Part shown: positions 471 through 18,278 of the stretch, piece after piece
Layout: every line of letters starts with the position of its first letter
Position numbering within the stretch: the stretch's first letter is position 1
Assembly (NCBI GenBank): GCA_017437965.1
Contig: JAFRWN010000078.1
Location: 1-34,454, forward strand
Source of the DNA: Lachnospiraceae bacterium
Lineage (GTDB): Bacteria; Bacillota; Clostridia; Lachnospirales; Lachnospiraceae
DNA length: 34,454 bases
Direction of reading: 5' to 3'
The notes under the pieces: model-generated
Database searches by the model: none
Told to the model about the DNA's origin: nothing
What the model saw: the letters and a program-made list of their open reading frames with translations, nothing else
Translations under genes and position numbers: made by a program

Positions 471-500
471 TTGTAAATCTCCCACATTTTATGATATAAT
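471..500 (+). promoter_or_regulatory. Sigma-A-type promoter of the exporter genes
   Basis: TTGTAA (471-476) and TATAAT (495-500) are separated by 18 bases, and TG one base before the -10 box makes it an extended -10 element. The predicted start near 507 leaves a leader of about 30 bases with AAGGAGG at 521-527 ahead of the ATG at 539. No operator was recognised. Confidence 0.7.
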
Positions 501-538
501 ATATTAATAATCCTTAACACAAGGAGGCCAGATCCATA

Positions 539-2698
539 ATGCCGGCAAAAAAACAATCCAGAAAACCTGTCCGCGTTCCTGTCATCATGCAGATGGAAGC
601 CATGGAATGCGGCGCAGCATGCCTTAATATGATTCTTGCCTATTACGGAAAATGGGTAACTCTCGAAACACTCAGGGAGGAATGCGGCGTATCACGTGAC
701 GGCCAGAAGCTTTCAATGGTTGTAAAAGCAGCCGAACATCACGGACTATCCTATGAAGCCCGCCGTTTCCGGCCCGAAAGCATATATCAAAAAGCTACCT
801 TCCCCTGCATGATCCACTGGCGCGGAGTTCATTTTGTCGTGCTCTGCGGAGTAAAAGGCGACAAGGTATATATCAACGATCCCGCTCTCGGTAATGTTGT
901 GCGTTCAAAAAAGGAATTTGAAGAAAACTACAGCGGAATGTGCGTAATGTTTTCACCCTCTGATTCCTTTGTTCCATCCGGTAAAAAGCCCGGCACCTTA
1001 TCATACATAATCAAAAGACTGAAAGACTGCAAACCGGCCGTAGCCTATGTTGCAATAACAACCATTATCGTGGCCGGTCTCGGCATACTTCAGCCGTTTT
1101 TCCTCCGCAACTTCATGGATAAAATCCTGGCCTCAGACAGCAAAGGCCCTGGTACTCTTATATTTCTGATGCTCATTGTTGCAGCCGTACAGCTTTTTGT
1201 AAGCTGGTTCTCGGCACTGAAACAGCTGAAGCTTTTTGGACTGATCTCCGTAAAAAATGATGTCGGCTTCATGCAGCATATTTTCCATCTTCCCGAAAGA
1301 TTCTTTTTCCAGCGCGATACAGGAGACCTTCAACAGAGGCAGCAGGCGAATTCCACGATATCGGAAACCATGATCAATCTCCTGATTCCTCTTGTCCTCA
1401 ACACCGCTCTGATGGCTTTCTACGTATTTTTCATGATAAGCTACAGTCCTCTCCTTTCAGCTGTCGGTATCCTTGCTATCATCATAAACAGCATCTGTAC
1501 CAGGCATTCTGCAAAGAAACGTCTGAATATCAGCCGTATCACAAGAAATGATACCGGCAAGCTCTATTCCGAAACCGCCGGAACCATTACCATGTTTGAA
1601 ACAATAAAGGCCTGCGGCGCCGAAAGCAACAGCTTTGCAGCCTGGGCTGCCCAGCAGGAAAAGGTATTCAACCAGAATCTCGAATATGACAGGGAAATGG
1701 TCGTCATGAAAAACATGATCACCTTCATAAATGACATTGCCACCTATCTCATACTCTGCTTCGGCCTGGTGCTTATCTATAACGGCGACTTTACCAAGGG
1801 CATGATGATGTCCTTCCACTCTATTTTCATGATGTTCTTACGCCCCGTTGAACAGATAGTGGCCTCGGAACAGCTGTTAAACGAAATGAGGGTCGATCTT
1901 GAAAGGGTGGAGGATGTCATGAAATATCCCGAATACCATCCTTACTCAGACAAGCCCGTAGATGAAGATGCATACAAGCTTAAGGGAAATATCGAGCTTA
2001 AGAATGTAAGTTTCGGTTATTCTCCTCTTGAGCCTCCTCTCGTAAAAGATTTTTGCCTTTCGGTAAAACCCGGAAGCTGCGTGGCTCTTGTAGGCCGCAG
2101 CGGAAGCGGAAAAAGCACCATATCCTCGCTTATTTCGGGACTCTACGAGCCCTGGGAGGGAGAAATTCTCTATGACGGTAAACCGATAAGCGAAATACCG
2201 GAGAAAATATTCAGAAGTTCCCTTTCGGTTGTCAGCCAGAATATCGTTCTTTTCAAGGACAGCGTCGAAAATAACTTGAAGCTCTGGAATCCCTACGTAG
2301 AAAACTTTGAAATGATGCTTGCCGTACGCGATGCAGAGGCAAATGATGGCATAATGGACAAGCCCGGGGGCTATGCCTACCAGATAAGCGAATCCGGGCA
2401 TGAATTTTCCGGCGGAGAAAAGCAGAGGCTTGAGATTGCAAGGGCCCTTGCGGTCCAGCCCACCATACTTATAATGGACGAGGCAACAAGCGCGCTGGAT
2501 GCCATGACCGAATTTGAGATAGTAAACAATGTCAAAAAGCTTGGCATAACCTGTATTATCGTGGCCCACAGGCTTTCGACCATCCGCGACTGTGACGAAA
2601 TCATCGTGATGAACGACGGCAATGTTATCGAACGCGGAACCCATGAAGAACTGCTTGACAAGCATGGTTATTATTCAGAACTGATTTCAAGTATGTAA
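539..2698 (+). CDS. NHLM-type peptidase-containing ABC exporter (C39 peptidase/permease/ATPase)
   Basis: This 719-residue protein should cleave the leader of a ribosomal peptide at its Gly-Gly motif and export the core across the membrane. Residues 1-140 form a C39 peptidase domain with oxyanion Gln18, catalytic Cys24 in MECGAAC, His98 and Asp114. A transmembrane domain follows (about 165-430, six helices). The ATPase domain has Walker A GRSGSGKST at 519-527, signature FSGGE at 623-627, Walker B ILIMDE at 643-648 and H-loop His677, all intact. AAGGAGG precedes the ATG by 11 bases. It is the first gene of the cluster and is followed after 20 bases by a second ABC exporter; such pairs are known from NHLP/Nif11-leader peptide loci. 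No HlyD-like fusion protein is present, as expected without an outer membrane. The leader of the precursor at 5018 ends in a Gly-Gly-type site, so it is the obvious substrate. Confidence 0.9.
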   Translation: MPAKKQSRKPVRVPVIMQMEAMECGAACLNMILAYYGKWVTLETLREECGVSRDGQKLSMVVKAAEHHGLSYEARRFRPESIYQKATFPCMIHWRGVHFVVLCGVKGDKVYINDPALGNVVRSKKEFEENYSGMCVMFSPSDSFVPSGKKPGTLSYIIKRLKDCKPAVAYVAITTIIVAGLGILQPFFLRNFMDKILASDSKGPGTLIFLMLIVAAVQLFVSWFSALKQLKLFGLISVKNDVGFMQHIFHLPERFFFQRDTGDLQQRQQANSTISETMINLLIPLVLNTALMAFYVFFMISYSPLLSAVGILAIIINSICTRHSAKKRLNISRITRNDTGKLYSETAGTITMFETIKACGAESNSFAAWAAQQEKVFNQNLEYDREMVVMKNMITFINDIATYLILCFGLVLIYNGDFTKGMMMSFHSIFMMFLRPVEQIVASEQLLNEMRVDLERVEDVMKYPEYHPYSDKPVDEDAYKLKGNIELKNVSFGYSPLEPPLVKDFCLSVKPGSCVALVGRSGSGKSTISSLISGLYEPWEGEILYDGKPISEIPEKIFRSSLSVVSQNIVLFKDSVENNLKLWNPYVENFEMMLAVRDAEANDGIMDKPGGYAYQISESGHEFSGGEKQRLEIARALAVQPTILIMDEATSALDAMTEFEIVNNVKKLGITCIIVAHRLSTIRDCDEIIVMNDGNVIERGTHEELLDKHGYYSELISSM

Positions 2699-2718
2699 GC
2701 AAAAAGGAGCTTTCTTTA

Positions 2719-4905
2719 ATGAATTTATACGGAGAAAACCTAAAAGAAATCCAGAATTACGAAGAAGCCATCCTGAAGGACGCCCTGGCAACGCTTGACG
2801 CAGAAATATCCGGTCAGTATAAGAGCACGCTTTCACAGGATGCTAGTGACAAACTTTGTCCTGTGATAGATCAGCTCCTTGAAGTAATGGGTATACGTAA
2901 AAAGTGGCTTCCCAAAAAGAAGCTAAGCTTCAAGGACCAGCTTGAATACCAGCTGAAGCCCTACGGACTTATGTACCGTTTTTCCAAGCCTGAGGGTGAA
3001 TGGTATAAAAAGGATGAGGGTCCTATGATAGCCGAGCTTAATGACGGCAGGCTGGTTCTTCTCAGACGCCACACATATACCTACTACTATATCGATCCGG
3101 ACAGCAGAAAAAAGATATTCATCAATCCCCAAACACGCGACACTGTTTCAGGAACCCTTATCCGTTTTTACCGCGCACTTCCGGACGATCCCACCAAAAA
3201 AAGAAGTATGTTACTGTGGCTTGCAAAGGAATTCCGTTTTCGTGAAGTAATACGGATCGTCATGTTTACTCTCGGAGCGGTACTATGCGGCACCCTGCTT
3301 CCCCTCATATCCAAAACCACACTTCAGGTAGTATCAGACAGAGAAGAAAAATTAGACGTTTTTAATGCATTCTTTACTTTCCTTATACTTTTCTTCCCGT
3401 TCATACTGATACGCTTTATCTTCAGTGTTATAAAAGAAAAGCTTATACGCAATCTTTCATACAGAATATCCGGAGATGTGCAGGCTGCTTTCATGATAAA
3501 GCTTTACTCGATGCCTGCAGGGGCCGTTGCAAAATATGCTGCCGGTGAAATCGGACATCAGATCATACAGCTCGGTGTTCTTGTAAACCGTATAGTTTCC
3601 GAGGCCCTGCTGATCGGTCTTATGGGAGTACTTTCCCTGTTTTATCTCACATCCGTTGCCGGATATGCACCCGAGCTGGTCGCTGTCACATTGTTTTATG
3701 TTGCGATTGCCGCAATCATCAATATATATACTGCAAGGAAAAAGTCAGAGGTTTCCTTTGAAAACCTTGAGTATCGTGCCGAATCCCAGGGCATGACCTA
3801 CAGTATGATACACGGGCTCCAGAAATTATACCTTTCCGGTGCCGAGACCAGAGGTTTTGTAAAGTGGACGGAAACCTACAAAAAGGGATTAAAGCCCAAA
3901 TACCGTCCCCCTGTCTCAACCGTAGTGGTAAAACCCCTGACAACAGCTATTTTTGCGCTCTGTCTGATGTCATCTTTCAGGATAGCCGATTCCTTAGATC
4001 TTTCAAGGGACAGTTTCTATGCCTACTACCTGGCTTTCGCAATGCTTATCGGAGCCGTTACCGAAATGTTCAACCATATGCTTGCAATTTCGGAGGCCAC
4101 ACCTTTACTGAAGCTTCTGACTCCCATCTTTATGGAAGATACCGAGACCGAGAGCGACCGCGTTTCCATAAATACGCTTAGTGGAGACGTTGCAATGAGC
4201 AAGGTTACTTTCCAGTATTCCGCAGACGACCGCCTGATACTCGACAATGTATCCTTCAAAATAAAGAAGGGCGAGTATGTTGCAATAGTCGGAAAAAGCG
4301 GCTGCGGAAAAAGTACTCTCCTGCGTCTGCTTTTAGGCTTTGAACGTCCCATAAGAGGCGATGTTTTCTATAACAACCAGCCTCTGCGTTCACTGGATCT
4401 GAGGTCCGTCCGTTCAAAGCTCGGAGTAGTATTACAGAGCAGCACGGTTATGCGCGGAACCATTGAAGACAATATAAAACTCAATGCTCCCGATGCCACC
4501 GACGACGAAATCTGGGAGGCTGTAAAGCTTTCCGGACTTGAGGACGATGTGCTGAAGCTTCCGCTGCGCCTTAACACTCCTCTTCCTCTTGGCGGCAAAG
4601 GCATGAGCGGTGGCCAGATACAAAAGATACTTATTGCAAGGGCGATAGTCGGCAAACCGAAGATAATGATCTTTGACGAGGCCACAAGCGCACTTGACAA
4701 CATCAGCCAGAAGCATATAGCGGAATCCCTTGAATCGCTTAAATGTACAAGGATAGTTGTTGCGCACAGGCTTTCGACAGTCAGAAAATGCGACCGTATA
4801 CTTGTGCTCGATGGCGGAAAATTTGTCGAGGAAGGAAGTTACGACGAGCTTATGGCCAAAAACGGTTTCTTCGCAGAGCTTGTAAAGAGACAGCAGGTAA
4901 ACTAA
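2719..4905 (+). CDS. NHLM-type ABC exporter without peptidase domain
   Basis: This 728-residue protein is the partner of the preceding exporter. The N-terminal 165 residues are soluble and replace the C39 peptidase; they lack the Cys/His/Asp pattern and contain a beta-rich stretch around residues 95-150. Membrane helices run from about 175 to 460. The ATPase domain has Walker A GKSGCGKST at 525-533, signature MSGGQ at 629-633, Walker B IMIFDE and H-loop AHRLST, so it appears active. AAGGAG lies a few bases before the ATG at 2719, and the 20-base gap after the first exporter indicates co-transcription. The two half-transporters may form a heterodimer that handles the modified peptide (inference from gene pairing). 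The function of the N-terminal region is not known to me; I assign the family from architecture and neighbours. Confidence 0.85.
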   Translation: MNLYGENLKEIQNYEEAILKDALATLDAEISGQYKSTLSQDASDKLCPVIDQLLEVMGIRKKWLPKKKLSFKDQLEYQLKPYGLMYRFSKPEGEWYKKDEGPMIAELNDGRLVLLRRHTYTYYYIDPDSRKKIFINPQTRDTVSGTLIRFYRALPDDPTKKRSMLLWLAKEFRFREVIRIVMFTLGAVLCGTLLPLISKTTLQVVSDREEKLDVFNAFFTFLILFFPFILIRFIFSVIKEKLIRNLSYRISGDVQAAFMIKLYSMPAGAVAKYAAGEIGHQIIQLGVLVNRIVSEALLIGLMGVLSLFYLTSVAGYAPELVAVTLFYVAIAAIINIYTARKKSEVSFENLEYRAESQGMTYSMIHGLQKLYLSGAETRGFVKWTETYKKGLKPKYRPPVSTVVVKPLTTAIFALCLMSSFRIADSLDLSRDSFYAYYLAFAMLIGAVTEMFNHMLAISEATPLLKLLTPIFMEDTETESDRVSINTLSGDVAMSKVTFQYSADDRLILDNVSFKIKKGEYVAIVGKSGCGKSTLLRLLLGFERPIRGDVFYNNQPLRSLDLRSVRSKLGVVLQSSTVMRGTIEDNIKLNAPDATDDEIWEAVKLSGLEDDVLKLPLRLNTPLPLGGKGMSGGQIQKILIARAIVGKPKIMIFDEATSALDNISQKHIAESLESLKCTRIVVAHRLSTVRKCDRILVLDGGKFVEEGSYDELMAKNGFFAELVKRQQVN

Positions 4906-4939
4906 AAAAGGGTTAATCGAATCTTAAGCATTTTTTTTC

Positions 4940-4968
4940 TTGCCCGTATACATTTTTTATGCTATACT
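4940..4968 (+). promoter_or_regulatory. Promoter dedicated to the peptide precursor
   Basis: TTGCCC (4940-4945) and TATACT (4963-4968) are separated by exactly 17 bases. The predicted start near 4975 gives a 43-base leader with AAGGAGGT at 5002-5009. A separate promoter lets the precursor be made in excess over exporters and enzymes. Confidence 0.7.
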
Positions 4969-5017
4969 CAATATATATCCGGAAAGTGAACCGGGGCTTA
5001 CAAGGAGGTATTATATA

Positions 5018-5260
5018 ATGAACAAAACAGTTGTTGAACTTATGAAGAAGATTCCGAAGGACAAGCTTAAAGAGCTTACCGCTGCTGCTTCTAAGGCTGC
5101 AAACAAGGATGATATTTTAGCTCTTGCTAAGAATTCCGGAATCGACATCTCTTCCGAAGAGGCTGAGGCAGTTTTCGCTGCTTTCAGTGAGGAAGCATCT
5201 GTAAAGGGTGAAGATCTTGACGCTGTCAGCGGTGGCGGAAGCTGCGATGGTGAGTGCTAG
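5018..5260 (+). CDS. RiPP precursor peptide: Nif11-like leader with short CX3C core
   Basis: This gene encodes 80 residues. The ATG at 5018 is chosen because AAGGAGGT lies 8 bases upstream; a longer reading from 4940 would run through the promoter. Residues 1-70 resemble a Nif11-type leader: Lys/Ala-rich helices, then DDILALAKNSGIDISSEEAE, then the conserved ending DLDAVSGG. The remaining core is only GSCDGEC (or SCDGEC if cut after the third Gly), with two cysteines three residues apart and two acidic residues. The neighbours, a C39 exporter and three radical SAM/SPASM enzymes, mark it as a substrate for radical modification such as a thioether crosslink; which bond forms is unknown. It is codon-biased and strongly translated-looking. 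It is not a lanthipeptide, since no LanM/LanB is nearby. The precursor role is well supported; the leader family assignment is by eye. Confidence 0.85.
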   Translation: MNKTVVELMKKIPKDKLKELTAAASKAANKDDILALAKNSGIDISSEEAEAVFAAFSEEASVKGEDLDAVSGGGSCDGEC

Positions 5261-5300
5261 GATTTAATCCTCAGATTCAGAATTTCATAAACATTTAAAG

Positions 5301-5334
5301 GAAATGCCGGGAATATAGCGGCATTTCTTTTGTT
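5301..5334 (+). terminator. Attenuator-like terminator between precursor and first maturase
   Basis: A perfect 9-base stem gaaatgccg (5301-5309) with cggcatttc (5319-5327) has a nine-base loop, followed by tttTgtt. It probably ends most precursor transcripts and lets a fraction read through into the maturase genes, a common stoichiometry device in RiPP loci. No separate promoter for 5367 was recognised. Confidence 0.7.
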
Positions 5335-5366
5335 ATATTGCATTATTTTTACGGATAATCTTGATC

Positions 5367-6686
5367 ATGGAAAAACAATACCGAAAATCCAACTACGTCC
5401 ACGCGGTCTACAGGAAAGAGCATGCGGACTGGCTTTTGTACAATTTCACCACCCGCAGGTTTCTGATACTTGATGAGTTCAAGAAACTGATATATGACGG
5501 CGCTCCCTATGACGATATATCCTCCCCTTTTCTGAAAAGCCTGTATGACAATGGTTTCCTTGTGGACTATGATGAATATGACAATCTTGTAAAGCGCCAG
5601 CTTAAAAGGCAGGAGGAAGATTCATTTGTACATCTCGGGATTGCACCCACCATGGGCTGCAATTTCCGCTGTGCTTACTGCATAGAGACTGGGCAGATAA
5701 GATCCGGACGAATGACAGCTGAGGTTTCAGATAAGGTAATCGCTTTTGCCAAAAAGCTTCTTAAAGGTGCAAAGGGCCTTTCACTGATATGGTTCGGCGG
5801 AGAGCCCATGCTTGCAATGGATGTGCTTTCACAGATCGGAAGTGCTCTTAAGACCTACTGTGATGAACACGCTCTTGCCTTCAACAGCGCAATATATACA
5901 AACGGGTTTTTCCTTTCGGAAAACAATATAAGGCTCCTTGAAAGCATCGGCGTTGATACCGTAAGAATTTCTGTTGACGGAAGCCGCGAAAGCCATGACA
6001 GAATGCGCTTTCTCGCCAACGGAAGCGGTTCCTACGACAAAATCCTTGAAAACCTTTCGGTTCCGACAAAAATGACCTACCGTATACGATGCAACATGAG
6101 GAAGGACAATCTCTCCGACTACGAAACCCTTGTGGATAATCTGCAGAAAATCCACGAAAAAAGCGGCAACCGGATAATCGTAAGCTCAGAGCGTATGCGT
6201 GTGGAAAAGGAAGTCAATTCCGCTCTTAAAGAACTGGAGCTTTCCTATCCCGAATACTATGATTTCTTCCAGAAAAACCGTACTCTTAAGGTATCCGAGG
6301 ACAAGGAAAAAATCATGTCATTGCTTAAGGGCAAGAGCACAGGCGTTACCTGCAACGCGACCAGAAAGAAAAGCTTCCAGATAGATGAGCAGGGAAATAT
6401 ATATAAATGCAACTGGTTTCTCGGAAAGGCTGAGCATGTGATCGGAAATGTAGCGGAAAATCCGAATTTCAGTGAACTCAACAGTACCGAAGAGGCCGGA
6501 TATTTTTTGAATCGCGTCATCGCAGACAGAGAAAAATGCAGAAACTGCGTCATGCTTCCCGTCTGCCTCGGCAGATGCCCGTTAAGCTGGGAAATTGAGG
6601 GAAAATATGACTGCATGAGAGACATAAACAGTCTGAACGAACTGCTTCCGCTTGCATATGAAGCATATAAAGACATGAAATCATAG
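5367..6686 (+). CDS. Radical SAM/SPASM peptide maturase 1
   Basis: This protein has about 439 residues. An ATG at 5367 follows an in-frame TTG at 5361; neither has a strong ribosome site, only GGAT at 5353, so the start is uncertain and translation may depend on read-through from the precursor. An N-terminal domain of about 90 residues is typical of peptide maturases and probably docks the leader. The radical SAM motif CNFRCAYC (cysteines 98, 102, 105) binds the [4Fe-4S] cluster that cleaves S-adenosylmethionine, and the SAM-contacting GGEP follows (FGGEPM). The C-terminal SPASM region has CNATRKK, YKCNWF, CRNC, CLGRC and a last Cys in YDCMRD, enough ligands for two auxiliary clusters. It lies 106 bases downstream of the precursor. 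The exact chemistry cannot be read from the sequence. Confidence 0.88.
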   Translation: MEKQYRKSNYVHAVYRKEHADWLLYNFTTRRFLILDEFKKLIYDGAPYDDISSPFLKSLYDNGFLVDYDEYDNLVKRQLKRQEEDSFVHLGIAPTMGCNFRCAYCIETGQIRSGRMTAEVSDKVIAFAKKLLKGAKGLSLIWFGGEPMLAMDVLSQIGSALKTYCDEHALAFNSAIYTNGFFLSENNIRLLESIGVDTVRISVDGSRESHDRMRFLANGSGSYDKILENLSVPTKMTYRIRCNMRKDNLSDYETLVDNLQKIHEKSGNRIIVSSERMRVEKEVNSALKELELSYPEYYDFFQKNRTLKVSEDKEKIMSLLKGKSTGVTCNATRKKSFQIDEQGNIYKCNWFLGKAEHVIGNVAENPNFSELNSTEEAGYFLNRVIADREKCRNCVMLPVCLGRCPLSWEIEGKYDCMRDINSLNELLPLAYEAYKDMKS

Positions 6687-6703
6687 TACAGAAAGCAATC
6701 TTC

Positions 6704-8164
6704 ATGAACAGATATATTTTACAGGAAAACATAGCACTTCGCGGGTGGCTGAACCGCCCTTATAATTACACCAAAGGAAAGCACTCTGCTCCCGTGCAGA
6801 TAAGTAAAGAACAGTTTGCAAAGCTTTCGGACTGTGAAGAGGCGGCTCTTCTGCCGGATGATGAGCTCACGGCAGAACTTCTTGGCATGGAACTTATCCG
6901 CACTGCGTCTGAGGGTGAAAAGGCAGCCGACTGGCAGAAATATCACTTTTATCCTCATATATATTTCCACAGCATCGAGCTTGAGATCACCGAACGATGC
7001 AACTACAACTGCCGTCACTGCTTCAATGCCGGAAGCATCGGCGTGCCGAGGAACGAGCTGTCGGCAGAAGATGCAAAACGTATCCTCAGCGAAGCATCGG
7101 AGGAAGGTGTAACTAATGTAGTACTTACCGGCGGCGAACCCCTTCTGCATCCGGACTTTTTTGAAATCATTGATGAAATACAGAAGTGCGGCATGACCCT
7201 TCTTGCAATAAACACCAACGGTTATTTTATAAATGAAAAGCTTCTTGACAGGCTTTCACTGCTTGAGCCACGGCCGGTGATGAAAATTTCCTTTGACGGT
7301 CTGGGCTTTCATGACTGGATGAGGGGTGTTTTGGGTGCCGAGGAAAAAACCGTACGCGCCATAAAACTATGTAAAGAGAGAGGCTTCATCGTAATGATAC
7401 AGATGAACCTCAACAAGCGGAACCTCGATGTGATGAACTCTTCCGTTGATTTTCTTAATGAGCTCGGCATAAACAGGGTAAGGATCATCCGCACCACCGA
7501 GGCTCCGAGATGGATAGAACAAGCGGGAAACGACTGTCTCAGCTGGGAAGAATACTATGATGCTGCACTTGAAATTACAAAGTATTATGTCAGTAAACCC
7601 AGAAATTTTTCAATCGACTTCTGGGAATATCTTTTTGTGAACGAGAGAAAGAAAAGTTTCCGTGCGGAAAAAATACAGTTCCGCGATGCAGAGGCTCATC
7701 CCTGGATTTTTTCCTGCCAGGGACGTATCGACCTTTGTGCAAACGGAGAGCTCTACCCCTGTATGCAGATGTCGGGTGGCCTTAAGGAAGCCGGGGTCTG
7801 CCTTGCGGACACTAAAAAAGAAGCTCTTGAAAAGCTGCTTACCGACAGTCTTTACCTGAAGTTTGTTTCAAACACCGTCGGCGACAAGAAAAAAGGCAAT
7901 GAAAGATGTGCAAACTGTCCTTTCTTTAAATATTGTGGCGGCGGTTGTCCGGCACTGAGCCTGATACTGCATGGAAGTTATAATGCTCCGGATGACTCTT
8001 CCTGCATTTTCTTCCGCGACGGCTACTACAAAAAAATACGGGAAATCCTGCCGGGCTATACCGATAAGGCACCGATGCCGGACATAGATTCCTCGTATCT
8101 TAAAGACTTTGATTATGATATAAAAGAGCTGATAAAGCTGGATTTTTCACAGTTCAAGGGATAG
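6704..8164 (+). CDS. Radical SAM/SPASM peptide maturase 2
   Basis: This 486-residue protein starts 17 bases after maturase 1, so the two are co-transcribed. Residues 1-88 form an N-terminal domain with no family I recognise. The core begins at ELEITERCNYNCRHC with cluster cysteines 99, 103 and 106, followed by LTGGEPLLHPDF and NTNGY, the standard radical SAM barrel motifs. The SPASM part has SCQGRIDLC, YPCMQM, CANCPFFKYCGGGCP and a late SCIFF cysteine. No strong Shine-Dalgarno sequence precedes the ATG, which suggests translational coupling or low expression. Sequence differs markedly from maturase 1, so it is not a simple duplicate; it may catalyse a second step or act in complex with it. 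The last 11 bases overlap the end of the opposing gene. Confidence 0.87.
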   Translation: MNRYILQENIALRGWLNRPYNYTKGKHSAPVQISKEQFAKLSDCEEAALLPDDELTAELLGMELIRTASEGEKAADWQKYHFYPHIYFHSIELEITERCNYNCRHCFNAGSIGVPRNELSAEDAKRILSEASEEGVTNVVLTGGEPLLHPDFFEIIDEIQKCGMTLLAINTNGYFINEKLLDRLSLLEPRPVMKISFDGLGFHDWMRGVLGAEEKTVRAIKLCKERGFIVMIQMNLNKRNLDVMNSSVDFLNELGINRVRIIRTTEAPRWIEQAGNDCLSWEEYYDAALEITKYYVSKPRNFSIDFWEYLFVNERKKSFRAEKIQFRDAEAHPWIFSCQGRIDLCANGELYPCMQMSGGLKEAGVCLADTKKEALEKLLTDSLYLKFVSNTVGDKKKGNERCANCPFFKYCGGGCPALSLILHGSYNAPDDSSCIFFRDGYYKKIREILPGYTDKAPMPDIDSSYLKDFDYDIKELIKLDFSQFKG

Positions 8165-9461
8165 CACGGAGTATTCTCTCAGTCTTCCAGAGCCTGAAAT
8201 CCCTGTGGCATTCTTCGCACTCTCTCTGCCTTGCAATGCATTCTTTCAGATTTACGCAGGAGGGATAGAAGGCGCAGCTTTTGCAACTTTCCCAGCTGCT
8301 CTTTTCATAGAACATATCGATTTTTTCCTCATCCCTCGCGGATGATCCAAGCTCGGAAAAATACAGTTCGTTATTGATATTTTCAGGGCATTTGTAAATT
8401 CTTCCTTCGGGCGAGATTCCGACCCACGCGCTGTCATCCGCAAAACAGGAATGAAGCGAAAACGCAGGCAGTGAATAACGGTTCTGCGCTATGGTTATTC
8501 CTGCTTCAAGGCATTTTACATAGGCTTTCTTCTGGATTTCAAAGAGTTCTGCTCTCTCCTCTTCGGAGTAAAAATCATATTTACCTTCATTAAGGACCTG
8601 GGGAAAAATCCTGAAATTTTTGCGGTCTTTAAACTTCCCGATCAGTTCATCAAGTATCCCGGGGATCTTTTCTTTATTGTGGTTTCCGATATTGAGCCTG
8701 ATATCCACCTGGATTCCGGCGTCAAGAAACAGTCCGATATTTGTGACGATTTTATCCCATGGGCTCAGGTTTTTGGGAACATCAACATAATTCTTTATAG
8801 TGTCATAGTCTTCTCCCACACCGTCCACCGGTATCTGCACTATCCTTAACATGCAGATTTCATAAAGATTCCTTATCATTTCTTCGTCAGCAAGATATCC
8901 GTTTGTATTCATTTTTGAAGTAAAGCTTACGCCGTTTTCATGTAGTTTTTCCGAAATCAGTTTTATGGTCGGCATGCACATGCTGGGCTCTCCGCCGAAC
9001 CACTTGATCCTTACAGGCTTTTCTTTAGAATTTTCCGTGATATATTCCGCTGTCTTTAATGCGGTTTCGTCACTCATCACCCTCGGCGCTATTCCTTCTT
9101 CAAAGCAGTAAAAGCATCTGGCATTACAACCGGTCGTCGGATATATGAAATAATTGTTTATTACCGATTTTGAACGGTTTTTGAGGGAGTAGTAGAATCT
9201 CAGATCGTCGACGAAAGCATATTCATCAAAATCCCCGGGCACAAGATAAAGATTGTCAGAAAGATATTTTTCTTCAGACTCGAATTCTTCCGAAGACAGT
9301 TTAACCGCACCACCGGTAAGGATATTATAAATTATCTCGGTATCGTCATCTTCCTTTATTCTCACCAGAAAGCTTAACGGCCTGAGGTTTTCAGAATGTG
9401 CAGTGTAATTGTTTCTATATTCTTTTATCAGCCTTGCATCAGGCTCGCGGAGTATTTTCAT
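8154..9461 (-). CDS. Radical SAM/SPASM peptide maturase 3 (opposite strand)
   Basis: This 435-residue protein has an ATG at 9461 preceded by AGAAGGA at a good distance. Residues 1-105 are an N-terminal region with a short YNILTGGAVKLSSEEFE segment, a pattern usual in the leader-recognition part of peptide maturases. The motif GCNARCFYC supplies cluster cysteines 112, 116 and 119, and WFGGEPSM is the SAM-contacting glycine motif. The C terminus is a Cys-rich SPASM domain (SCFADDS, YKCPEN, CKSC, YPSC, KECIARQRECEEC). It runs against maturase 2 and the two 3' ends overlap by 11 bases. It has its own promoter (9533-9561), so its level can be set apart from the other two. It is most likely a third tailoring enzyme of the same peptide, but it could serve another substrate elsewhere. 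Confidence 0.85.
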   Translation of the reverse strand: MKILREPDARLIKEYRNNYTAHSENLRPLSFLVRIKEDDDTEIIYNILTGGAVKLSSEEFESEEKYLSDNLYLVPGDFDEYAFVDDLRFYYSLKNRSKSVINNYFIYPTTGCNARCFYCFEEGIAPRVMSDETALKTAEYITENSKEKPVRIKWFGGEPSMCMPTIKLISEKLHENGVSFTSKMNTNGYLADEEMIRNLYEICMLRIVQIPVDGVGEDYDTIKNYVDVPKNLSPWDKIVTNIGLFLDAGIQVDIRLNIGNHNKEKIPGILDELIGKFKDRKNFRIFPQVLNEGKYDFYSEEERAELFEIQKKAYVKCLEAGITIAQNRYSLPAFSLHSCFADDSAWVGISPEGRIYKCPENINNELYFSELGSSARDEEKIDMFYEKSSWESCKSCAFYPSCVNLKECIARQRECEECHRDFRLWKTERILRAIP

Positions 9462-9532
9462 GGTGGGGCATCCTTCTAGATTATTTTACCAAAAATATGA
9501 TTACGGATTGTTTCGTGCTGCTCTTTGATCAT

Positions 9533-9561
9533 ATTCTCACATATTATAATCAAAATGTCAA
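9533..9561 (-). promoter_or_regulatory. Promoter of maturase 3
   Basis: Read on the minus strand, TTGACA (9561-9556) is followed after 17 bases by GAGAAT (9538-9533), with TG one base before the -10 box. It abuts the divergent promoter for the exporter gene, whose -35 box begins at the next base. Confidence 0.5.
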
Positions 9562-9590
9562 TTGCATTTATCCGGCGATTATGTTAGAAT
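9562..9590 (+). promoter_or_regulatory. Promoter of the threonine/serine exporter gene
   Basis: TTGCAT (9562-9567) and TAGAAT (9585-9590) are 17 bases apart. The -35 box is directly back to back with that of the divergent maturase 3 promoter, so one bound protein could affect both. Confidence 0.65.
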
Positions 9591-9634
9591 TTCATGTAAA
9601 GAAATAACAGTATCATATGAAACGGAAATAAATT

Positions 9635-10957
9635 ATGAGCAAATTCAGAAAACAACATATGGCCATTCCCTGGCATGAGCTGGTCGAGCAGGATTCGGAC
9701 ACCAGAGCGATAAACGCAAGCCTTAAGGAAAAGGCCACTCTTGTAGGACGAATGGGGCTTTCGATGCTTTCGGTCGGAACCGGTGCATGGCGTGTGCGAG
9801 CTTCGATGAACAAGGTATCGCGTGCGCTCGGGATTACCTGCAATGCGGATATCGGTCTGCTTGCAATTTCCTATACCTGCATTGAAGGCGGCGAAACCTA
9901 TACCAATTCAATTTCGATTAACACCACCGGTGTCAACACCGATAAGGTATATTATCTCGACCTTTTTGCCGACAGTTTTGCGGAAAGAGTCGATAAATAT
10001 TCGGTGGAACAGTTCCACAGCATACTCGACACGATAATGAGCGCCAAAGGGCATTACAATGCCTGGCAGCTCGGGCTTTCAGCCGGCTTTGCATGCGCGG
10101 CCTTTACCTTCCTTCTCGGAGGCGGTCCGATTGAAATGCTTTGCGCACTTTTCGGTGCCGGAGTCGGAAATTTCGTCAGAAAAAAGATGCTTGAAAGGCA
10201 TATCACTCTTTTTGCCAACGTATGTGTGGGCGTCGCCTCCGCATGTACGGTATATGTGCTTCTGATCAAGCTTGCCGAGGCTTTTGCAAATATACCGACA
10301 GCGCACCAGGCCGGATATATCTGCTCGATGCTTTTTATCATCCCCGGCTTCCCGCTAATCACCGGCGGTATCGACCTTGCAAAGCTTGACCTTCGCTCAG
10401 GTATTGAAAGAATTACCTATGCGCTGTTAATTATCGTTGTCGCCACTCTTACAGCCTGGGTCATGGCCACTGTTTATCATTTTAAGCCTGCAGATTTTGA
10501 AGAATTCAAAATGGACGAAAAGCTTCGTTTCGCCCTGTGGATGGTAACGAGCTTCGTCGGAGTCTACGGCTTCTCGATGATGTTCAACAGCACAAAAAAA
10601 ATGGCATCCATTGCCGGATGCCTCGGAATGTGCACAAACACTTTCCGTTTAAGCCTTATTGAATTTGCACATGCTCCAATCCCTCTGGCAGCATTTATCG
10701 GTGCCCTCTGCTCAGGCCTCATCGCCTCAGGTATCAAGAAAGAGGTCGGAGTTCCGCGAATCACACTGACGGTACCCTCGATCGTTATCATGGTACCGGG
10801 TATGTTCATGTATAAGGGCATATACTTTATCGCAAAAAACGAGCTCGCAACGGGCGGCATGTGGCTGTCAAAAGCACTGCTCATCGTAATGTCCCTTCCC
10901 CTCGGACTCATCTGCGCAAGAATACTCACTGATGAAAACTTTAGAAAAAGTTCATGA
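9635..10957 (+). CDS. ThrE-family threonine/serine exporter-like membrane protein
   Basis: This 440-residue protein belongs to the ThrE family, which exports threonine and serine using the proton gradient. The soluble N-terminal part (about 1-140) carries the family's GxGAWRVRASMNKVSRALGI-like stretch and a beta-rich segment. Ten or so membrane helices follow, with FIIPGFPLITGGIDLAKLD in the centre, the most conserved ThrE signature, and a second half rich in glycine helices (LAAFIGALCSGLIASGI). The two halves that are separate proteins in some bacteria are fused here. A weak ribosome site (ACGGAA) precedes the ATG. The gene is transcribed alone from 9562 and ends at a terminator located inside deoB. 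The true substrate has not been shown for this branch. Confidence 0.82.
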   Translation: MSKFRKQHMAIPWHELVEQDSDTRAINASLKEKATLVGRMGLSMLSVGTGAWRVRASMNKVSRALGITCNADIGLLAISYTCIEGGETYTNSISINTTGVNTDKVYYLDLFADSFAERVDKYSVEQFHSILDTIMSAKGHYNAWQLGLSAGFACAAFTFLLGGGPIEMLCALFGAGVGNFVRKKMLERHITLFANVCVGVASACTVYVLLIKLAEAFANIPTAHQAGYICSMLFIIPGFPLITGGIDLAKLDLRSGIERITYALLIIVVATLTAWVMATVYHFKPADFEEFKMDEKLRFALWMVTSFVGVYGFSMMFNSTKKMASIAGCLGMCTNTFRLSLIEFAHAPIPLAAFIGALCSGLIASGIKKEVGVPRITLTVPSIVIMVPGMFMYKGIYFIAKNELATGGMWLSKALLIVMSLPLGLICARILTDENFRKSS

Positions 10958-10989
10958 CATCTCCCCCCTCTTAAGTGAGCAGACCTTTT

Positions 10990-12117
10990 TCACACTCCCA
11001 AAAATCTTTCCACGGCTTCTCCCGCAAAGGAGAAGCCTTTTTTTGTACCATAATCAAGGCCCGGTGTAACTCCCTTGCCGTAAAGAAGCAGCGGCACATA
11101 TTCCCTTGTATGATCCGTACCCTTAAATGTCGGATCGCACCCATGATCCGCTGTGATAAGAAGCAGGTCCTCCTCCGAAAGCTTCTTAAGCAGCTCACCA
11201 AGTCTCAGGTCAAAGGACTCAAGCCCGCCTGCATAACCGTCCACATCTCTTCTGTGGCCCCATGAAGAATCAAACTCCACAAGATTGGTAAATATCAGGC
11301 CGGACTTAACGAAATCAAGTGCCTCTATGGTCTTGTCCATGCCGTCCTCGTTGTCCTTTGTGTGCACAGCCTCGGTAATCCCGACGCCGGCAAAAATATC
11401 CTCAATTTTTCCTATCGCATAAACCGGAAGCCCCACATTCTTTATCCGCACTAATGTATTGTCCTCCGAAGGCTCGAGCGAAAAATCACGGCGGTTGCTT
11501 GTTCTTACATATTTCTCTCCGTCATGCACAAAGGGGCGGGCGATAACACGTGCTACCGCATGGTCTCCCGTCAGTATCTCCCTTGCGATACGGCACATAT
11601 CATAAAGCTTTTCGGGCGGGTAGATCACCTCCGCGCAAGCAATCTGGAACACACTGTCGGCCGAGGTATATACTATCGGCTTTTTCGTTTCCATATGCTC
11701 ATCGCCCAGCTCATTTATAATAGTAGTGCCCGAGGCAACGCAGTTTCCGAGTATGCCGGGAACACCTGTTTTTTCCACAAATTCATTTATCACATCATCG
11801 GGGAATCCGTCAGGGAAGGTAAGAAACGGTTTTTCGGTAATAATGCCTGCCATCTCCCAGTGGCCCGTCGTCGTGTCCTTTCCTGCGCTCAGTTCTTCAA
11901 GGCGCGCAAAGGCACCCTTCGGTTTTTCAACGCTTTCTACGCCCTGCATTCCGTCTATATTTCCATAGCCCAGGCTTCTGAGATTCGGTATTTTCAGATC
12001 CGGATATTTTTCCATGATATGTCCGATGGTACTAGAGCCCTCATCACCGAAGGCAGCCGCATCCGGTGCCTCCCCCATACCCACACTGTCAAGTACTATC
12101 CATATTACGCGCTTCAT
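10990..12117 (-). CDS. deoB: Phosphopentomutase
   Basis: This 375-residue cytoplasmic enzyme interconverts ribose/deoxyribose 1- and 5-phosphate, linking nucleoside salvage to the pentose phosphate pathway. It starts MKRVIWIVLDSVGMGEAPDA, with metal ligand Asp10. The phosphorylated threonine lies in DTTTGHWE (82-84), and the metal-binding DHGCDPTFKGTDHTREYVPL segment is near the C terminus. The length is slightly below the usual 390. AGGAGGG lies 8 bases upstream of the ATG. It is the last gene of an operon after the NlpC-type lipoprotein and the AmrS-type enzyme, 77 bases downstream of the latter. Its last codons (GFSFAGEA) also form the terminator of the convergent exporter gene. I saw no clear terminator of its own. 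Confidence 0.95.
   Translation of the reverse strand: MKRVIWIVLDSVGMGEAPDAAAFGDEGSSTIGHIMEKYPDLKIPNLRSLGYGNIDGMQGVESVEKPKGAFARLEELSAGKDTTTGHWEMAGIITEKPFLTFPDGFPDDVINEFVEKTGVPGILGNCVASGTTIINELGDEHMETKKPIVYTSADSVFQIACAEVIYPPEKLYDMCRIAREILTGDHAVARVIARPFVHDGEKYVRTSNRRDFSLEPSEDNTLVRIKNVGLPVYAIGKIEDIFAGVGITEAVHTKDNEDGMDKTIEALDFVKSGLIFTNLVEFDSSWGHRRDVDGYAGGLESFDLRLGELLKKLSEEDLLLITADHGCDPTFKGTDHTREYVPLLLYGKGVTPGLDYGTKKGFSFAGEAVERFLGV
11014..11044 (+). terminator. Terminator of the exporter gene, embedded in deoB
   Basis: A perfect 9-base stem ggcttctcc (11014-11022) with ggagaagcc (11029-11037) and a six-base loop is followed by seven T on the plus strand. The same bases encode GFSFAGEA near the end of DeoB on the minus strand, where no adjacent T-run follows. 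It therefore serves the plus-strand gene only. Confidence 0.85.
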
Positions 12118-12194
12118 TGTAAACCCTCCTGTAAAACCTAAAGTCTTTGCAATGTCTGTGGCCGGCTGTTTTTCATAAACATTTACTGCCCGAT

Positions 12195-13064
12195 TCAGCA
12201 GTTGCCAGTATATACATATTTAAGCTTTTCTCTTGCCACCTCTGCCAGACGGTAAACCTTTGCGACATCGGTTGAGCGGCGGTCTGTCATATGAAAACAG
12301 GGATGGAAGCGTGAAACATGAAGCGGCACATTCCGCCCGATAGGATTACCATCCGCATCCTTTAGCTCGGAAATCCATGCGCACATTTCGCGCATCTCTT
12401 CTTCGCTGTCGTTTTCGCCCGGAATAATAAGTGTTGTCAGTTCGACATGGCAATGCTTCACTGCCTCGGTGATCATTGCTTTAACCACCCCGAGATCACC
12501 ATTTAGCAGATCTTTATAGTATTGCTCTGTAAAGCCCTTAAGGTCGATATTCATGGCGTCGATATACAGTGCAAGCTCCGAGTAGACCGAAAGCTCCGCA
12601 GTACCGTTTGTCACCATCACGTTATACATTCCGAGTTCATGCACAAGCTTTGCTGTGTCACGTACATATTCATAGCCCACAAAAGGCTCGTTGTAGGTAA
12701 ACGCCACGCCGATATTGCCTCTGTCCCTGTAATGAAGGGCCGCCGCGGCAAGCTCTTCAGGGCTCAGGTATTCTGCCCTCTCCCTGTATTCCGGAACCTC
12801 ATCGCCCCAGGATATGCTGCTGTTCTGGCAGAATGGACAGCGCAGGTTACAGCCGTAGCTTCCTACCGAAAGAATCTTGCTTCTCGGATGAAATCTTTTT
12901 AGTGGCTTCTTTTCTATCGGGTCAAGGGCAAGCGAAGTGATCCTGCCGTAATTTAAGGCATATACTTCCCCGTCCTTAACTCCTCTTGCACCGCAAAAGC
13001 CCAGGCCGCCTTCACTTATCTTACAGTGCCTGAAGCAGACACTGCACTCTTTTGTAATCCCCAT
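12195..13064 (-). CDS. amrS: AmrS-type radical SAM enzyme (AmmeMemoRadiSam system)
   Basis: This 289-residue protein is of the AmmeMemoRadiSam radical SAM family, distantly related to pyruvate formate-lyase activating enzyme; its biological role is poorly defined. A Cys-rich N terminus (ECSVCFRHC and GFCGARG) precedes the cluster motif GCNLRCPFCQN (cysteines 72, 76, 79). The segments FTYNEPFV, NVMVTNGT, DAMNIDLKGF, TTLIIPGEND and LHVSRFHPCF are diagnostic for the family. I place the start at the ATG at 13064, which has AAAAGGAG four bases upstream. The longer reading from 13106 would translate a REP-like palindrome and overlap the stop of the previous gene as TAATG. AmrA and AmrB partners are not in the window. 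It sits between a lipoprotein gene and deoB. Confidence 0.88.
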   Translation of the reverse strand: MGITKECSVCFRHCKISEGGLGFCGARGVKDGEVYALNYGRITSLALDPIEKKPLKRFHPRSKILSVGSYGCNLRCPFCQNSSISWGDEVPEYRERAEYLSPEELAAAALHYRDRGNIGVAFTYNEPFVGYEYVRDTAKLVHELGMYNVMVTNGTAELSVYSELALYIDAMNIDLKGFTEQYYKDLLNGDLGVVKAMITEAVKHCHVELTTLIIPGENDSEEEMREMCAWISELKDADGNPIGRNVPLHVSRFHPCFHMTDRRSTDVAKVYRLAEVAREKLKYVYTGNC

Positions 13065-13077
13065 TTGTTCTCCTTTT

Positions 13078-13104
13078 GGGACAAAAGAACCGTCCCCGTG
13101 TCCC
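13078..13104. repeat. REP-like imperfect palindrome
   Basis: The 27-base element begins gggaca and ends tgtccc, with gaaccgtcccc inside. On the minus strand it reads GGGACACGGGGACGGTTC and so on. From memory this resembles the short palindromes linked to REP-associated (RAYT) transposases in Clostridia and other bacteria. It occupies the gap between the NlpC-type gene and the likely amrS start. No transposase and no second copy were found in the window. Confidence 0.6.
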
Positions 13105-13105
13105 A

Positions 13106-14551
13106 TTAACAGCCGTAAATTGTTTTTAGTACATCTGCTGCGCTCATGTTAAAGATTCCGTCGGGATCCGACAATATTCCGCCGTCGAGCTTCCATGTGA
13201 ATTTTCCGGTTCCTGCGCCGGAAAGCGCCGTATAGTCTGCATAGCTCTTAAGCGCTACCTCATATCTTGCGTACCACTCGGGGCTGAACTGTGACATATA
13301 TTTGTCCGCAAGCTGGTAGGCCTCGCAGCTCTTTGAGTCTCCGATTGCCGAAAGCTGCACTCCGCCTCCGTCGTTTCCGAGCCTGCTTTTTGAGGGTGTG
13401 CTGTGTGCGATCACAATCGATCCGTCGGAGCAGGTTCCGATGCACATCCAGACATGGCCCTTCATGCTGAAAATGTCTCCGGGTTTGAAATCCGCTGCCT
13501 TAAAACTTGTCGTAGCAGTTCCCCAGCCGCGTTCAGCAAAATTTCCGGCCATCTTGGTGGAGCTCATTACATAACCCTCTGCCCCGTCTGCTGTATTCAT
13601 CACATTATAAATCACCCAGCCGACATAACCCGAGCAGTCAAGTCCTGCATAGTAATATTCATTCCACCCGCCGTTCGGATAATAATCGGGCTTATATTTA
13701 TAGTTTCCGTCCTGCGAAAAGAAGAAGTCCGTCCATGAATCCGCAACGCCTATGCTCTTTGCCTGGCCAGAAGACGCGACATCCTGCCAGTCCCAGCCGC
13801 CGCCATATACATAATTAACACAGCCGGCCGGCATTACCGCAGTTTTTATCAGATTGGTAAGAGTTTTCTCTCCCGCAGTACCTTTGATCTGCGGATCATA
13901 CCACGAGGGCGAAGGAACAATATATGCTTCCTTTACGCTTCCGTCCTCATTAAGTATTCCCATGCAGTAAACATTGTCGGAAATCATGCCTTCCTTTACG
14001 GTGCTTCCGCCTGCCGCACGGTTTACGGTATATATTTTACTGAGTTCCGTCGTTCTCATGCTTACAGTCTCATAATAACCTGACAGCACACCGTCAGCCG
14101 GTCCCATATCCGACGTGATTTCTTTAACGGAGCTTATCGTCTCACCGTTTAATCCAAGCGAATAAAGATAACCTTCCTTTAAAGAGTTCTGGATTCCGTA
14201 CTCTTCATCAAGTCCGACCACAAATATCTTTTCTTCCCCGTTGATAAAGAAACGGTATTTGAAATCATTCTTCCCGTCCTTATTCATACTTGCATAATCC
14301 TTGATTCCGAGAAAAACAGCAGGATTTTCGATGACGTTTATTATCTCAGGCTCGGCGCTGCTTTCAGAAGAGGATTCCGGGGCAACCGGATTTGTATTTT
14401 CGGACGATGAGCTTCCGGAAACTTCCCCTGCGCTGCTTTCACTCTGTGCCTTGCTGCTGTCCTTAGCTTTTGTACTGTCCTTTCCGCATGCGGAAAATGC
14501 CATAAATCCTGTAAGAAGCATCACTGCTCCCGATATCAATACTTTCTTCAT
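13106..14551 (-). CDS. NlpC/P60-like lipoprotein (putative cell-wall hydrolase)
   Basis: This 481-residue protein has a signal peptide and lipobox: basic start, hydrophobic 8-19, then FSAC with Cys22 as the acylated residue. A Ser/Glu-rich linker spans about 24-68 and a domain of unknown type 70-225. The C-terminal half looks like an NlpC/P60 or related papain-like peptidoglycan hydrolase: Cys306 in LDCSGYVGW, His366 in KGHVWMCIG and His383 in IAHSTPS. A 50-residue insert lies ahead of the catalytic Cys. It should act on the outer face of the membrane, cutting peptide stems of the wall. AGGAAAG precedes the ATG. It is the first gene of the operon with amrS and deoB, whose roles are unrelated. 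The substrate is unknown, and the family call rests on the catalytic pattern. Confidence 0.78.
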   Translation of the reverse strand: MKKVLISGAVMLLTGFMAFSACGKDSTKAKDSSKAQSESSAGEVSGSSSSENTNPVAPESSSESSAEPEIINVIENPAVFLGIKDYASMNKDGKNDFKYRFFINGEEKIFVVGLDEEYGIQNSLKEGYLYSLGLNGETISSVKEITSDMGPADGVLSGYYETVSMRTTELSKIYTVNRAAGGSTVKEGMISDNVYCMGILNEDGSVKEAYIVPSPSWYDPQIKGTAGEKTLTNLIKTAVMPAGCVNYVYGGGWDWQDVASSGQAKSIGVADSWTDFFFSQDGNYKYKPDYYPNGGWNEYYYAGLDCSGYVGWVIYNVMNTADGAEGYVMSSTKMAGNFAERGWGTATTSFKAADFKPGDIFSMKGHVWMCIGTCSDGSIVIAHSTPSKSRLGNDGGGVQLSAIGDSKSCEAYQLADKYMSQFSPEWYARYEVALKSYADYTALSGAGTGKFTWKLDGGILSDPDGIFNMSAADVLKTIYGC

Positions 14552-14585
14552 AATATCTTCTTTCCTAATTGGTTTTATGCTTTAT

Positions 14586-14614
14586 ATTATATTATACGGT
14601 CTTTGAAAAATCAA
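14586..14614 (-). promoter_or_regulatory. Promoter of the NlpC-amrS-deoB operon
   Basis: On the minus strand, TTGATT (14614-14609) is followed after 17 bases by TATAAT (14591-14586), in a strongly AT-rich stretch with overlapping TATAAT copies. It is divergent from the promoter at 14648. Confidence 0.65.
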
Positions 14615-14647
14615 TATTGTTTGGTGCCGCGCAGGCAGAAAAAAACC

Positions 14648-14676
14648 TTGTTAAATCATTATAAATGTGTTATCAT
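14648..14676 (+). promoter_or_regulatory. Promoter of the ExbB/ExbD-like operon
   Basis: TTGTTA (14648-14653) and TATCAT (14671-14676) are 17 bases apart. The predicted transcript start near 14683 leaves only about 14 bases before an ATG at 14697, which argues for the next in-frame ATG at 14727. Confidence 0.65.
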
Positions 14677-14726
14677 AGACAAGTAGGCACTTTTGTATGT
14701 GCAATTTTTCTTACGGGGTTTGGACA

Positions 14727-15548: not shown

Positions 15549-15551
15549 GCA

Positions 15552-16139
15552 ATGAAAAGACGCAGAGATGTTGCAATCGAGCTCACGCCTCTTCTTGACG
15601 TCATTCTGATACTGCTCTTCCTTATCCTAAGTGGAAGTCAGGAAACCAACAAAAAGGTTAAACAGGAGGCTGACACAAAGGTTGAGTCAATGCAGGAAAC
15701 CGTCGACAGTCTTGATAAAGAGCTTAGCGATTCAAAAATCAAGATCAATTCGCTTTCTGAAGACAATACCAAGCTCAGCTCGATGGTCGAGGGCTTCAAG
15801 GGCTTTGCCGAGTTTGCAAAAATTATCGATATAATGATACGCTATCCGGAAGACCGTGAGGATGTTTCCGGCAGACAGCTTCTGATCGATGACAACGGTA
15901 AGTGGATTACCGTGGAATATGACAAGAACAGTCTTGTTTACGGTTATGACACCACAAAGAGCTATCTGAACGAGCTGCTTGAGGCCGCAGGTGACGGTCC
16001 GGTATTCATTGTTTTTTCATATGACGATAAGACGAAGACCAGGGATGTGACCGAAATCAGCGAGCTCATACAGAGTGTGGCTTCAAAATCACCTGAGATT
16101 TATTTTAAAGTACAGAACATTACTGCAGATAAGCAGTAA
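15552..16139 (+). CDS. ExbD/TolR-like protein
   Basis: This 195-residue protein begins with a basic cytoplasmic tail and one membrane helix, IELTPLLDVILILLFLIL. The Asp in PLLDV (residue 16) matches the essential proton-carrying Asp of ExbD and TolR. A coiled-coil-like segment of about 50 residues (roughly 30-80, Lys/Glu/Ser-rich) follows, then an extracellular domain of about 110 residues with alternating strands (KWITVEYDK, PVFIVFSYDD). It is placed three bases after the channel gene, with AAGGAATAG overlapping the previous stop as ribosome site. It lacks the OmpA-like peptidoglycan-binding motif of MotB. The partner relation is strongly suggested by gene order; the energised client is unknown. 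Confidence 0.78.
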   Translation: MKRRRDVAIELTPLLDVILILLFLILSGSQETNKKVKQEADTKVESMQETVDSLDKELSDSKIKINSLSEDNTKLSSMVEGFKGFAEFAKIIDIMIRYPEDREDVSGRQLLIDDNGKWITVEYDKNSLVYGYDTTKSYLNELLEAAGDGPVFIVFSYDDKTKTRDVTEISELIQSVASKSPEIYFKVQNITADKQ

Positions 16140-16158
16140 AAATATATGGAGGTTTACT

Positions 16159-16665: not shown

Positions 16666-16692
16666 TTTTCTTTTACCCCATTACATTATGCA

Positions 16693-16735: not shown

Positions 16736-16745
16736 TAATGTTTTT

Positions 16746-18254: not shown

Positions 18255-18278
18255 AGACCTTTTTTACCTTTCGATATA

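Follow-up and report, generated by a model that had tools for sequence, protein, structure and literature searches.

Gene clusters of anaerobes in which Nif11/NHLP precursors accompany a peptidase-containing transporter and several radical S-adenosylmethionine (SAM) proteins have been published, and in the accessible sections of that report their cores are 14-59 residues long (PMC4289311). The window examined here is the whole 34,454-nucleotide contig JAFRWN010000078.1 of a Lachnospiraceae bacterium. A six-gene cassette of this general kind, preceded by the end of another gene, lies within its initial 9.5 kb. As far as the available parts of the earlier reports describe them (PMC4289311; precursor families, PMC2887384), the published clusters share with this locus a leader ending in VAGG or VSGG, a transporter with an N-terminal peptidase and more than one radical SAM protein. 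They carry one to three precursors with the longer cores given above, whereas the cassette has one precursor whose family displays predicted cores of 5-9 residues with two cysteines. The gene set is thus a variant of the published cluster type, in which the core size and the uniform cysteine pair look new.

PapB, a ranthipeptide maturase, bonds a cysteine sulfur to the carbon adjacent to a carboxylate and, in the portion of the report at hand, accepts 0-6 residues between the two partners, 0 and 6 incompletely (PMC9413430). This tolerance would accommodate the CX1-3C spacings of the cassette's cores, and two of the cassette's enzymes match the PapB and SCIFF maturase models. Thuricin CD biosynthesis also uses more than one radical SAM enzyme per pathway, there two that act as a complex; it differs in having two precursors and two enzymes and, in the part of the source available, no reported Nif11-like leader (PMC12093266). 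The initial annotation of the window knew of no named class with this exact gene set. Likewise, searches of the open-access literature, which omits most subscription journals, listed no description of the cassette or of two-cysteine cores this short, and the accessible portion of the main text of the Hungate1000 bacteriocin paper contains neither 'radical SAM' nor CGGC nor CDGEC (PMC13289728).

The locus comprises the following features.

1-303: tail of another gene, preceding the six-gene set
539-2698, forward strand: C39 peptidase-ABC exporter of 719 amino acids, NHLM ABC1-like (Pfam C39 and ABC matches)
2719-4905, forward strand: second ABC permease/ATPase of 728 amino acids, without C39, NHLM ABC2-like (TIGR03797 match)
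4940-4968, forward strand: promoter-like site with an extended -10 upstream of the precursor (weak evidence)
5018-5260, forward strand: precursor of 80 amino acids with a cysteine-free, Nif11-like leader ending LDAVSGG (profile match and alignment)
5237-5257, forward strand: predicted seven-residue core GSCDGEC, with two cysteines spaced CX3C, the second C-terminal (sequence; double-Gly site by alignment)
5296-5332, forward strand: hairpin between the precursor and enzyme 1, terminator- or attenuator-like (folding against shuffles)
5367-6686, forward strand: radical SAM/SPASM enzyme 1, on the TIGR04463/PapB/SCIFF-maturase side (NCBIfam and solved-chain profiles)
6704-8164, forward strand: radical SAM/SPASM enzyme 2, on the AhbD/ScmE/SkfB side (NCBIfam and solved-chain profiles)
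8154-9461, reverse strand: radical SAM/SPASM enzyme 3 (NCBIfam and solved-chain profiles)

The initial annotation took this region for a ribosomally synthesized and post-translationally modified peptide (RiPP) locus in which three radical enzymes accompany a very short core. All of its parts are present, and the search of related genomes that it called for yields two further complete cassettes with the same six-gene order. The draft assembly (G000) totals 2.54 Mb in 162 contigs, of which the window is C19. A contig scan with enzyme 1 returned two loci. One of them (L006, from a Lachnoclostridium assembly) encodes a 97% identical enzyme 1 and an identical core, and its contig ends inside enzyme 2. 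The other (L007, from the Lachnospiraceae metagenome assembly G399, which probably belongs to the window's own family) has all six genes with order and orientation kept. Among 31 genomes of the genus of L007, enzyme 1 is matched at E ≤ 1e-80 in two, G399 and G743, and the G743 contig (L111) carries the third complete cassette, with enzyme 3 convergent as elsewhere.

Identities to the window in L007 and L111, respectively, are 58 and 60% for ABC1, 41 and 43% for ABC2, 52 and 51% for the precursor, 55 and 52% for enzyme 1, 45% in both for enzyme 2, and 46 and 48% for enzyme 3. The genes flanking the cassette differ between genomes when compared by eye. Neither L007 nor L111 has an extra gene in the cassette besides the six, and the sole peptidase in each is the C39 domain. 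The precursor is found in two of five genomes of the window's genus, the second of which (G001) is likely the same assembly as that of L006. Chance clustering of the genes is ruled out by the two further complete cassettes, and the constant gene order shows the six-gene cassette to be a conserved unit.

Precursor relatives were collected with a single sequence (two proteins), a three-sequence profile (eight) and a nine-sequence profile (19). Thirteen of the 19 proteins match the last profile at E values of 2.1e-25 or lower, followed by a gap to 2.1e-5; the remaining six are other Nif11 peptides with at most one cysteine each. Among the thirteen, P0007 repeats the window precursor with additional residues at its start and does not add to the count. 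The family set thus defined has 14 distinct members including that of the window (P0003) and that of L007 (P0009), or 13 besides the window's own. The leader of the window precursor had been called Nif11-like, which is as far as the assignment can go, since it matches TIGR03798 at 26.3 bits, under the cut-off of 32.3; 11 of the 14 members match this model at E values up to 0.01.

All 14 precursors have a double-Gly site (SGG) followed by a variable core. As originally noted, seven residues follow this site in the window precursor. The 11 distinct predicted cores, 5-9 residues in length, are GSCDGEC (two members), SGCGGC, SSCGGC, GSCGGC (two), SACECGK, DACAC, KGKLGCNGC (two), SDCGEC, SSCFGQC, WCDSEC and CHVEC. 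Every precursor has exactly two cysteines in its core and none in its leader. The cysteines are separated by one residue in two members, two in seven and three in five, and the second is C-terminal in 13 of 14, the exception being P0016 (...CECGK). Asp or Glu occurs in seven of the 14 cores, in six of them between the cysteines, and the core of the window has both.

The profiles used in these searches had contained the core, and a profile made from three leaders only serves as a control. It scores the 14 members at 95-144 bits and the next six Nif11 peptides at 31-35 bits. Because the leader alone separates the family, the cysteine pair common to its members is not an effect of core-based selection. 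In the best leader tree, the cysteine spacing changes five times while the pair stays constant, and the well-supported branches force at least two spacing changes per class; five of the 12 inner forks of this tree are open. The two core cysteines are invariant while spacer residues and spacing vary, and the pair is therefore the likely enzyme target. The precursor search detects only relatives with short exact words in common, and cores without a cysteine pair may therefore exist further out.

The three SPASM radical SAM proteins are as unlike one another as had been proposed: identity is 27% over 376 residues between enzymes 1 and 3 and 25% over 371 residues between enzymes 1 and 2. Each has a CX3CX2C motif and seven further C-terminal cysteines in the SPASM region, and all ten are conserved in the three complete cassettes. 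Measured against the canonical SPASM cysteine pattern, the C-terminal region of enzyme 3 reads CX2CX5CX5CX6C, a CX5C spacing taking the place of the CX3C found in enzymes 1 and 2. Enzyme 1 matches TIGR04463 at 213 bits (cut-off 525), the PapB model NF047865 at 146 bits (cut-off 340) and the SCIFF maturase model at 108 bits (cut-off 425). Enzyme 3 matches TIGR04463 at 124 bits and NF047865 at 76 bits, with the same cut-offs. The best NCBIfam match of enzyme 2 is AhbD at 105 bits (cut-off 500), with ScmE and similar models near 100 bits and weaker matches to the mycofactocin maturase (74 bits) and PqqE (63 bits).

By profile, the nearest solved chain to enzymes 1 and 3 is 5wgg (91 and 65 bits), which we take to be the SCIFF maturase CteB. 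For enzyme 2, 6efn, SkfB, comes first at 63.5 bits and cytosylglucuronate decarboxylase second at 50 bits. CteB and SkfB both make cysteine thioethers. The genome that contains the window also encodes two paralogues of enzyme 3 (L041, G000:C90:35000-53478), at 7194-8833 and 12996-14327, with 33 and 30% identity. A 40-amino acid open reading frame (ORF) with two cysteines, ending STCDPVTGEGDETCIPMDN, immediately precedes the first and could encode its precursor.

The explanation we favor, whose chances we judge to be about even, is that the three enzymes act in turn on the core cysteine pair to close a tiny thioether ring, and that the C39 exporter cuts and exports the product. The precursor would be made in excess over the enzymes by means of its own promoter-like site and the hairpin downstream, and its leader would recruit each enzyme to the precursor C terminus. 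Enzyme 1, and perhaps enzyme 3, would bond the sulfur of the first cysteine to a carbon near the C terminus, the acceptor being the C-terminal residue, usually the second cysteine. Enzyme 2 would add a further C-H change. The C39 domain would then cut after Gly-Gly, and the ABC1/ABC2 pair would export a product of 5-9 residues, possibly a metal-binding or signaling peptide.

The C-terminal residue is put forward as the acceptor because the spacer has no fixed side chains and Asp or Glu is missing from half of the cores. What the cores have in common is two cysteines and, except in P0016, a C terminus next to the second. If enzyme 1 works in a PapB-like manner, the one carboxylate that all cores can offer is at the C terminus, and the first cysteine would therefore be joined to the last residue. 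Such an acceptor would explain both the free spacing and the free choice of spacer residues. A bolder version of this proposal, about which we are doubtful, is that the cassette represents a new RiPP class, radical SAM micropeptides, whose three enzymes make a macrocycle with the sulfur of the first cysteine on the alpha carbon of the C-terminal cysteine. The acceptor would be set by the C-terminal carboxylate and by no side chain, so that spacer length and sequence could drift. The several crosslinks suggested in the initial annotation are plausible; the cores have only two cysteines, and half lack an acidic acceptor.

A number of observations weigh against closure of a ring by these enzymes. 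All three score far under the curated cut-offs of named maturase families, those of PapB and CteB included, no CX3D motif is common to the cores, and radical SAM/SPASM membership alone does not fix the reaction. With Asp or Glu in only half of the cores, an acceptor side chain of the PapB type cannot apply throughout the family, and in P0016 the second cysteine is not the C-terminal residue. PapB gave no product when acid and cysteine were transposed, according to the available part of the report, so that a bond from the second cysteine to an upstream residue is without PapB precedent; that same portion of the PapB literature has no report of a C-terminal residue as acceptor (PMC9413430). The scatter of spacings on the leader tree is indistinguishable from that obtained by shuffling the labels, 55 of 200 shuffles being as low. 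The gene neighborhood is known for three of the 14 precursors, probably all from one bacterial family. Predicted structures for enzymes 2 and 3, built from two-sequence alignments, had mean predicted local distance difference test scores of 43.7 and 52.8 and were too poor to use. Lastly, the genome that contains the window also encodes further Nif11-like precursors together with an enzyme 2-like gene, so that cross-talk via the enzyme 2 lineage is conceivable.

Cores of such small size, with the same two cysteines throughout, leave little room for chemistry elsewhere, and three uncharacterized radical enzymes can be tested on a synthetically accessible peptide. The eleven natural cores supply a graded set of substrates, with one, two or three residues inside the proposed ring. 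A reaction needing only a cysteine and a C terminus, if real, would offer a broadly applicable way to cyclize small peptides.

An explanation that we consider unlikely, although it survives best among the rivals, leaves the thiols free. The product would be a tiny dithiol peptide that binds metal or acts in redox chemistry, and the enzymes would carry out epimerization, C-C bond formation or oxidation nearby. The cysteine pair is the sole invariant of the cores, CX1-3C spacings could bind metal, and relatives of enzyme 2 adjoin Nif11 precursors with longer CxxC-bearing cores, both in this genome and in others (L119 and L126, below). On the other side, enzymes 1 and 3 fall on the PapB/SCIFF side, whose members are named as thioether-forming, and a single metal site seldom has variable spacing.

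The relatives of enzyme 2 came to light through weaker precursor-profile matches, which lead to four further genomes (G759, G1396, G826 and G477); the link between this enzyme lineage and Nif11 peptides is thus partly one of selection. In G759 and G1396, enzyme 2-like genes (317 and 332 bits) adjoin Nif11 precursors whose long cores read CPxC...CxxC, and the stretches fetched from these two genomes contain no enzyme 1- or 3-like gene. The first of these loci (L119, G759:C6, 6912-9863) has three such precursors and the second (L126, G1396:C117, 8174-10073) has one, with cores that look zinc-ribbon-like by eye. These arrangements suggest that enzyme 2 may have come from a long-core Nif11 system and then been recruited to the cassette. 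In the genome G826, Nif11 sets occur together with enzyme 1-like genes. At its locus L121 (G826:C16, 7946-15380), several Nif11 precursors flank one radical SAM gene together with an ABC1/ABC2 pair, so that precursors outnumber enzymes, the reverse of the ratio in the window.

A second rival, which we regard as improbable, has the core consumed, with a small molecule or cofactor carved from its cysteine residues in the manner of PQQ or mycofactocin. Cores of five residues exist (DACAC and CHVEC), and enzyme 2 weakly resembles the AhbD, PqqE and mycofactocin maturase models. The cassettes hold six genes only, though, and none of the 14 cores has the Tyr of such pathways. In addition, all three complete cassettes keep the C39 peptidase-exporter and its partner, which fits export of a cleaved peptide.

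This exporter pair can be described in some detail. The protein encoded at 539-2698 matches Pfam Peptidase_C39 at 115 bits and retains Q18, C24, H98 and D114, presumably the C39 active-site residues, as do its counterparts in the other two complete cassettes. The claim that one exporter has an intact C39 peptidase is thereby borne out. The companion claim of two NHLM-type exporters is accepted in part, since both genes are present. The ABC1-like protein matches TIGR03796 at 783 bits (cut-off 853; next best model 364 bits) and the ABC2-like protein matches TIGR03797 at 537 bits (cut-off 709; next best model 302 bits). Because both score under the NHLM cut-offs, they are classed from their profile scores as divergent NHLM-type proteins, for which a single ABC1/ABC2 pair is a better description than two separate exporters.

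The weakest rival, also raised in the initial annotation, is that the oppositely encoded third enzyme, or the second, serves another precursor elsewhere and is merely linked here; the reverse strand of enzyme 3, its two paralogues on C90 (one just after the two-cysteine ORF) and three other long-core Nif11-like precursors of the kind found beside enzyme 2-like genes speak for it, but we hold it to be improbable, as the place of enzyme 2 and the place and orientation of enzyme 3 are constant in all three complete cassettes, each of which keeps every enzyme with one precursor, and the genome's other Nif11 system owns an enzyme 2-like gene and an ABC1/ABC2 pair.

That other system is split between two contigs. 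Of three weak matches to the window precursor in its own genome, two proved to be real Nif11-like precursors of this other kind. At L128 (G000:C104, 185-5990), two precursors with long, cysteine-bearing cores (CSSTPCPHNG...CNNC) adjoin an ABC1/ABC2 pair that is 43 and 34% identical to that of the window. At L129 (G000:C161, 1-1999), a precursor nearly identical to the C104 kind adjoins the enzyme 2-like gene (34% identity, 303 bits). The description of the window precursor as single consequently needs qualification: it is the sole member of its family in the assembly, which has these three other Nif11-like precursors as well. A second member of the family was found neither in G000 nor in G399 (G743 was not searched).

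Wider searches returned distant relatives of the enzymes. Enzyme 1 matched 12 of 299 family genomes (best match outside its own genome, 159 bits), an enzyme 1 profile matched 25 of 392 order genomes (192 bits), and an enzyme 3 profile matched 13 of 397 family genomes (164 bits). A precursor profile run on 397 genomes from the G399 family and on 391 from the class exceeded 43 bits only in G399 (140 bits) and in the window's own genome (124 bits). These draws overlap, are partial for each group and are not independent, and G743 and G001 are absent from their match lists. Neighborhoods were viewed for 20 of the 26 places matched by the enzyme 1 profile outside the window's own genome, several of them cut by contig ends, and for all places from the other two enzyme draws but G033:C173. 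The cassette was not found in the 38 neighborhoods viewed around these distant enzyme 1 and enzyme 3 matches. Enzymes occurring without the precursor, which the initial annotation would have counted against its proposal, are not seen at the level of orthologues in the genomes searched; more distant relatives, at about 25-38% identity, do accompany other Nif11 precursors.

The combination of several radical enzymes with a short, cysteine-ending core also exists outside this cassette. Locus L125 of G477 (G477:C11:78000-97000, 8603-19001) resembles it in having a Nif11-like precursor with such a core and enzyme 1-like, enzyme 2-like and ABC1-like genes, the last partial at the end of the stretch. 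It differs in having two precursors (cores ACCGNACAQC and EPCAGAVSFGCVGLGIF), two enzyme 2-like genes beside the one that is enzyme 1-like, a YcaO gene, a Dph6-like gene and a B12-radical SAM gene nearest to ApyD (320 bits, cut-off 750). Its enzymes are 25-29% identical to those of the cassette, and its product is possibly a heavily modified short peptide.

Two candidate control elements bracket the precursor gene. The promoter-like site upstream (TTGCCC-17-TATACT with TG, 9 of 12 positions matched) has identical letters in L006; the scan found three sites in the stretch against a shuffle mean of 1.4 (standard deviation 1.2). The hairpin downstream has a folding energy of -17.9 kcal/mol (z -4.4). 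Hairpins occur at the equivalent place in L006 (-17.9 kcal/mol, z -4.5), L007 (-25.1 kcal/mol, z -6.4) and L111 (-18.0 kcal/mol, z -3.0), the last being the weakest, with one of 200 shuffles as good. A consensus terminator scan with a loop limit of 8 found no terminator at the position of the hairpin.

At the other end of the cassette, the enzyme 3 gene is convergent with that of enzyme 2 and overlaps it by 11 bases. The next gene starts at 9635, appears by eye to encode a membrane protein and has no counterpart adjoining the L111 cassette; the L007 contig stops just past enzyme 3, which limits comparison of this flank to L111. Further along the window, inspection of translations by eye points to a radical SAM ORF on the reverse strand (12195-13106), AmmeMemoRadiSam or activase-like, and to a MotA/ExbB-like set of ORFs on the forward strand (14697-16665).

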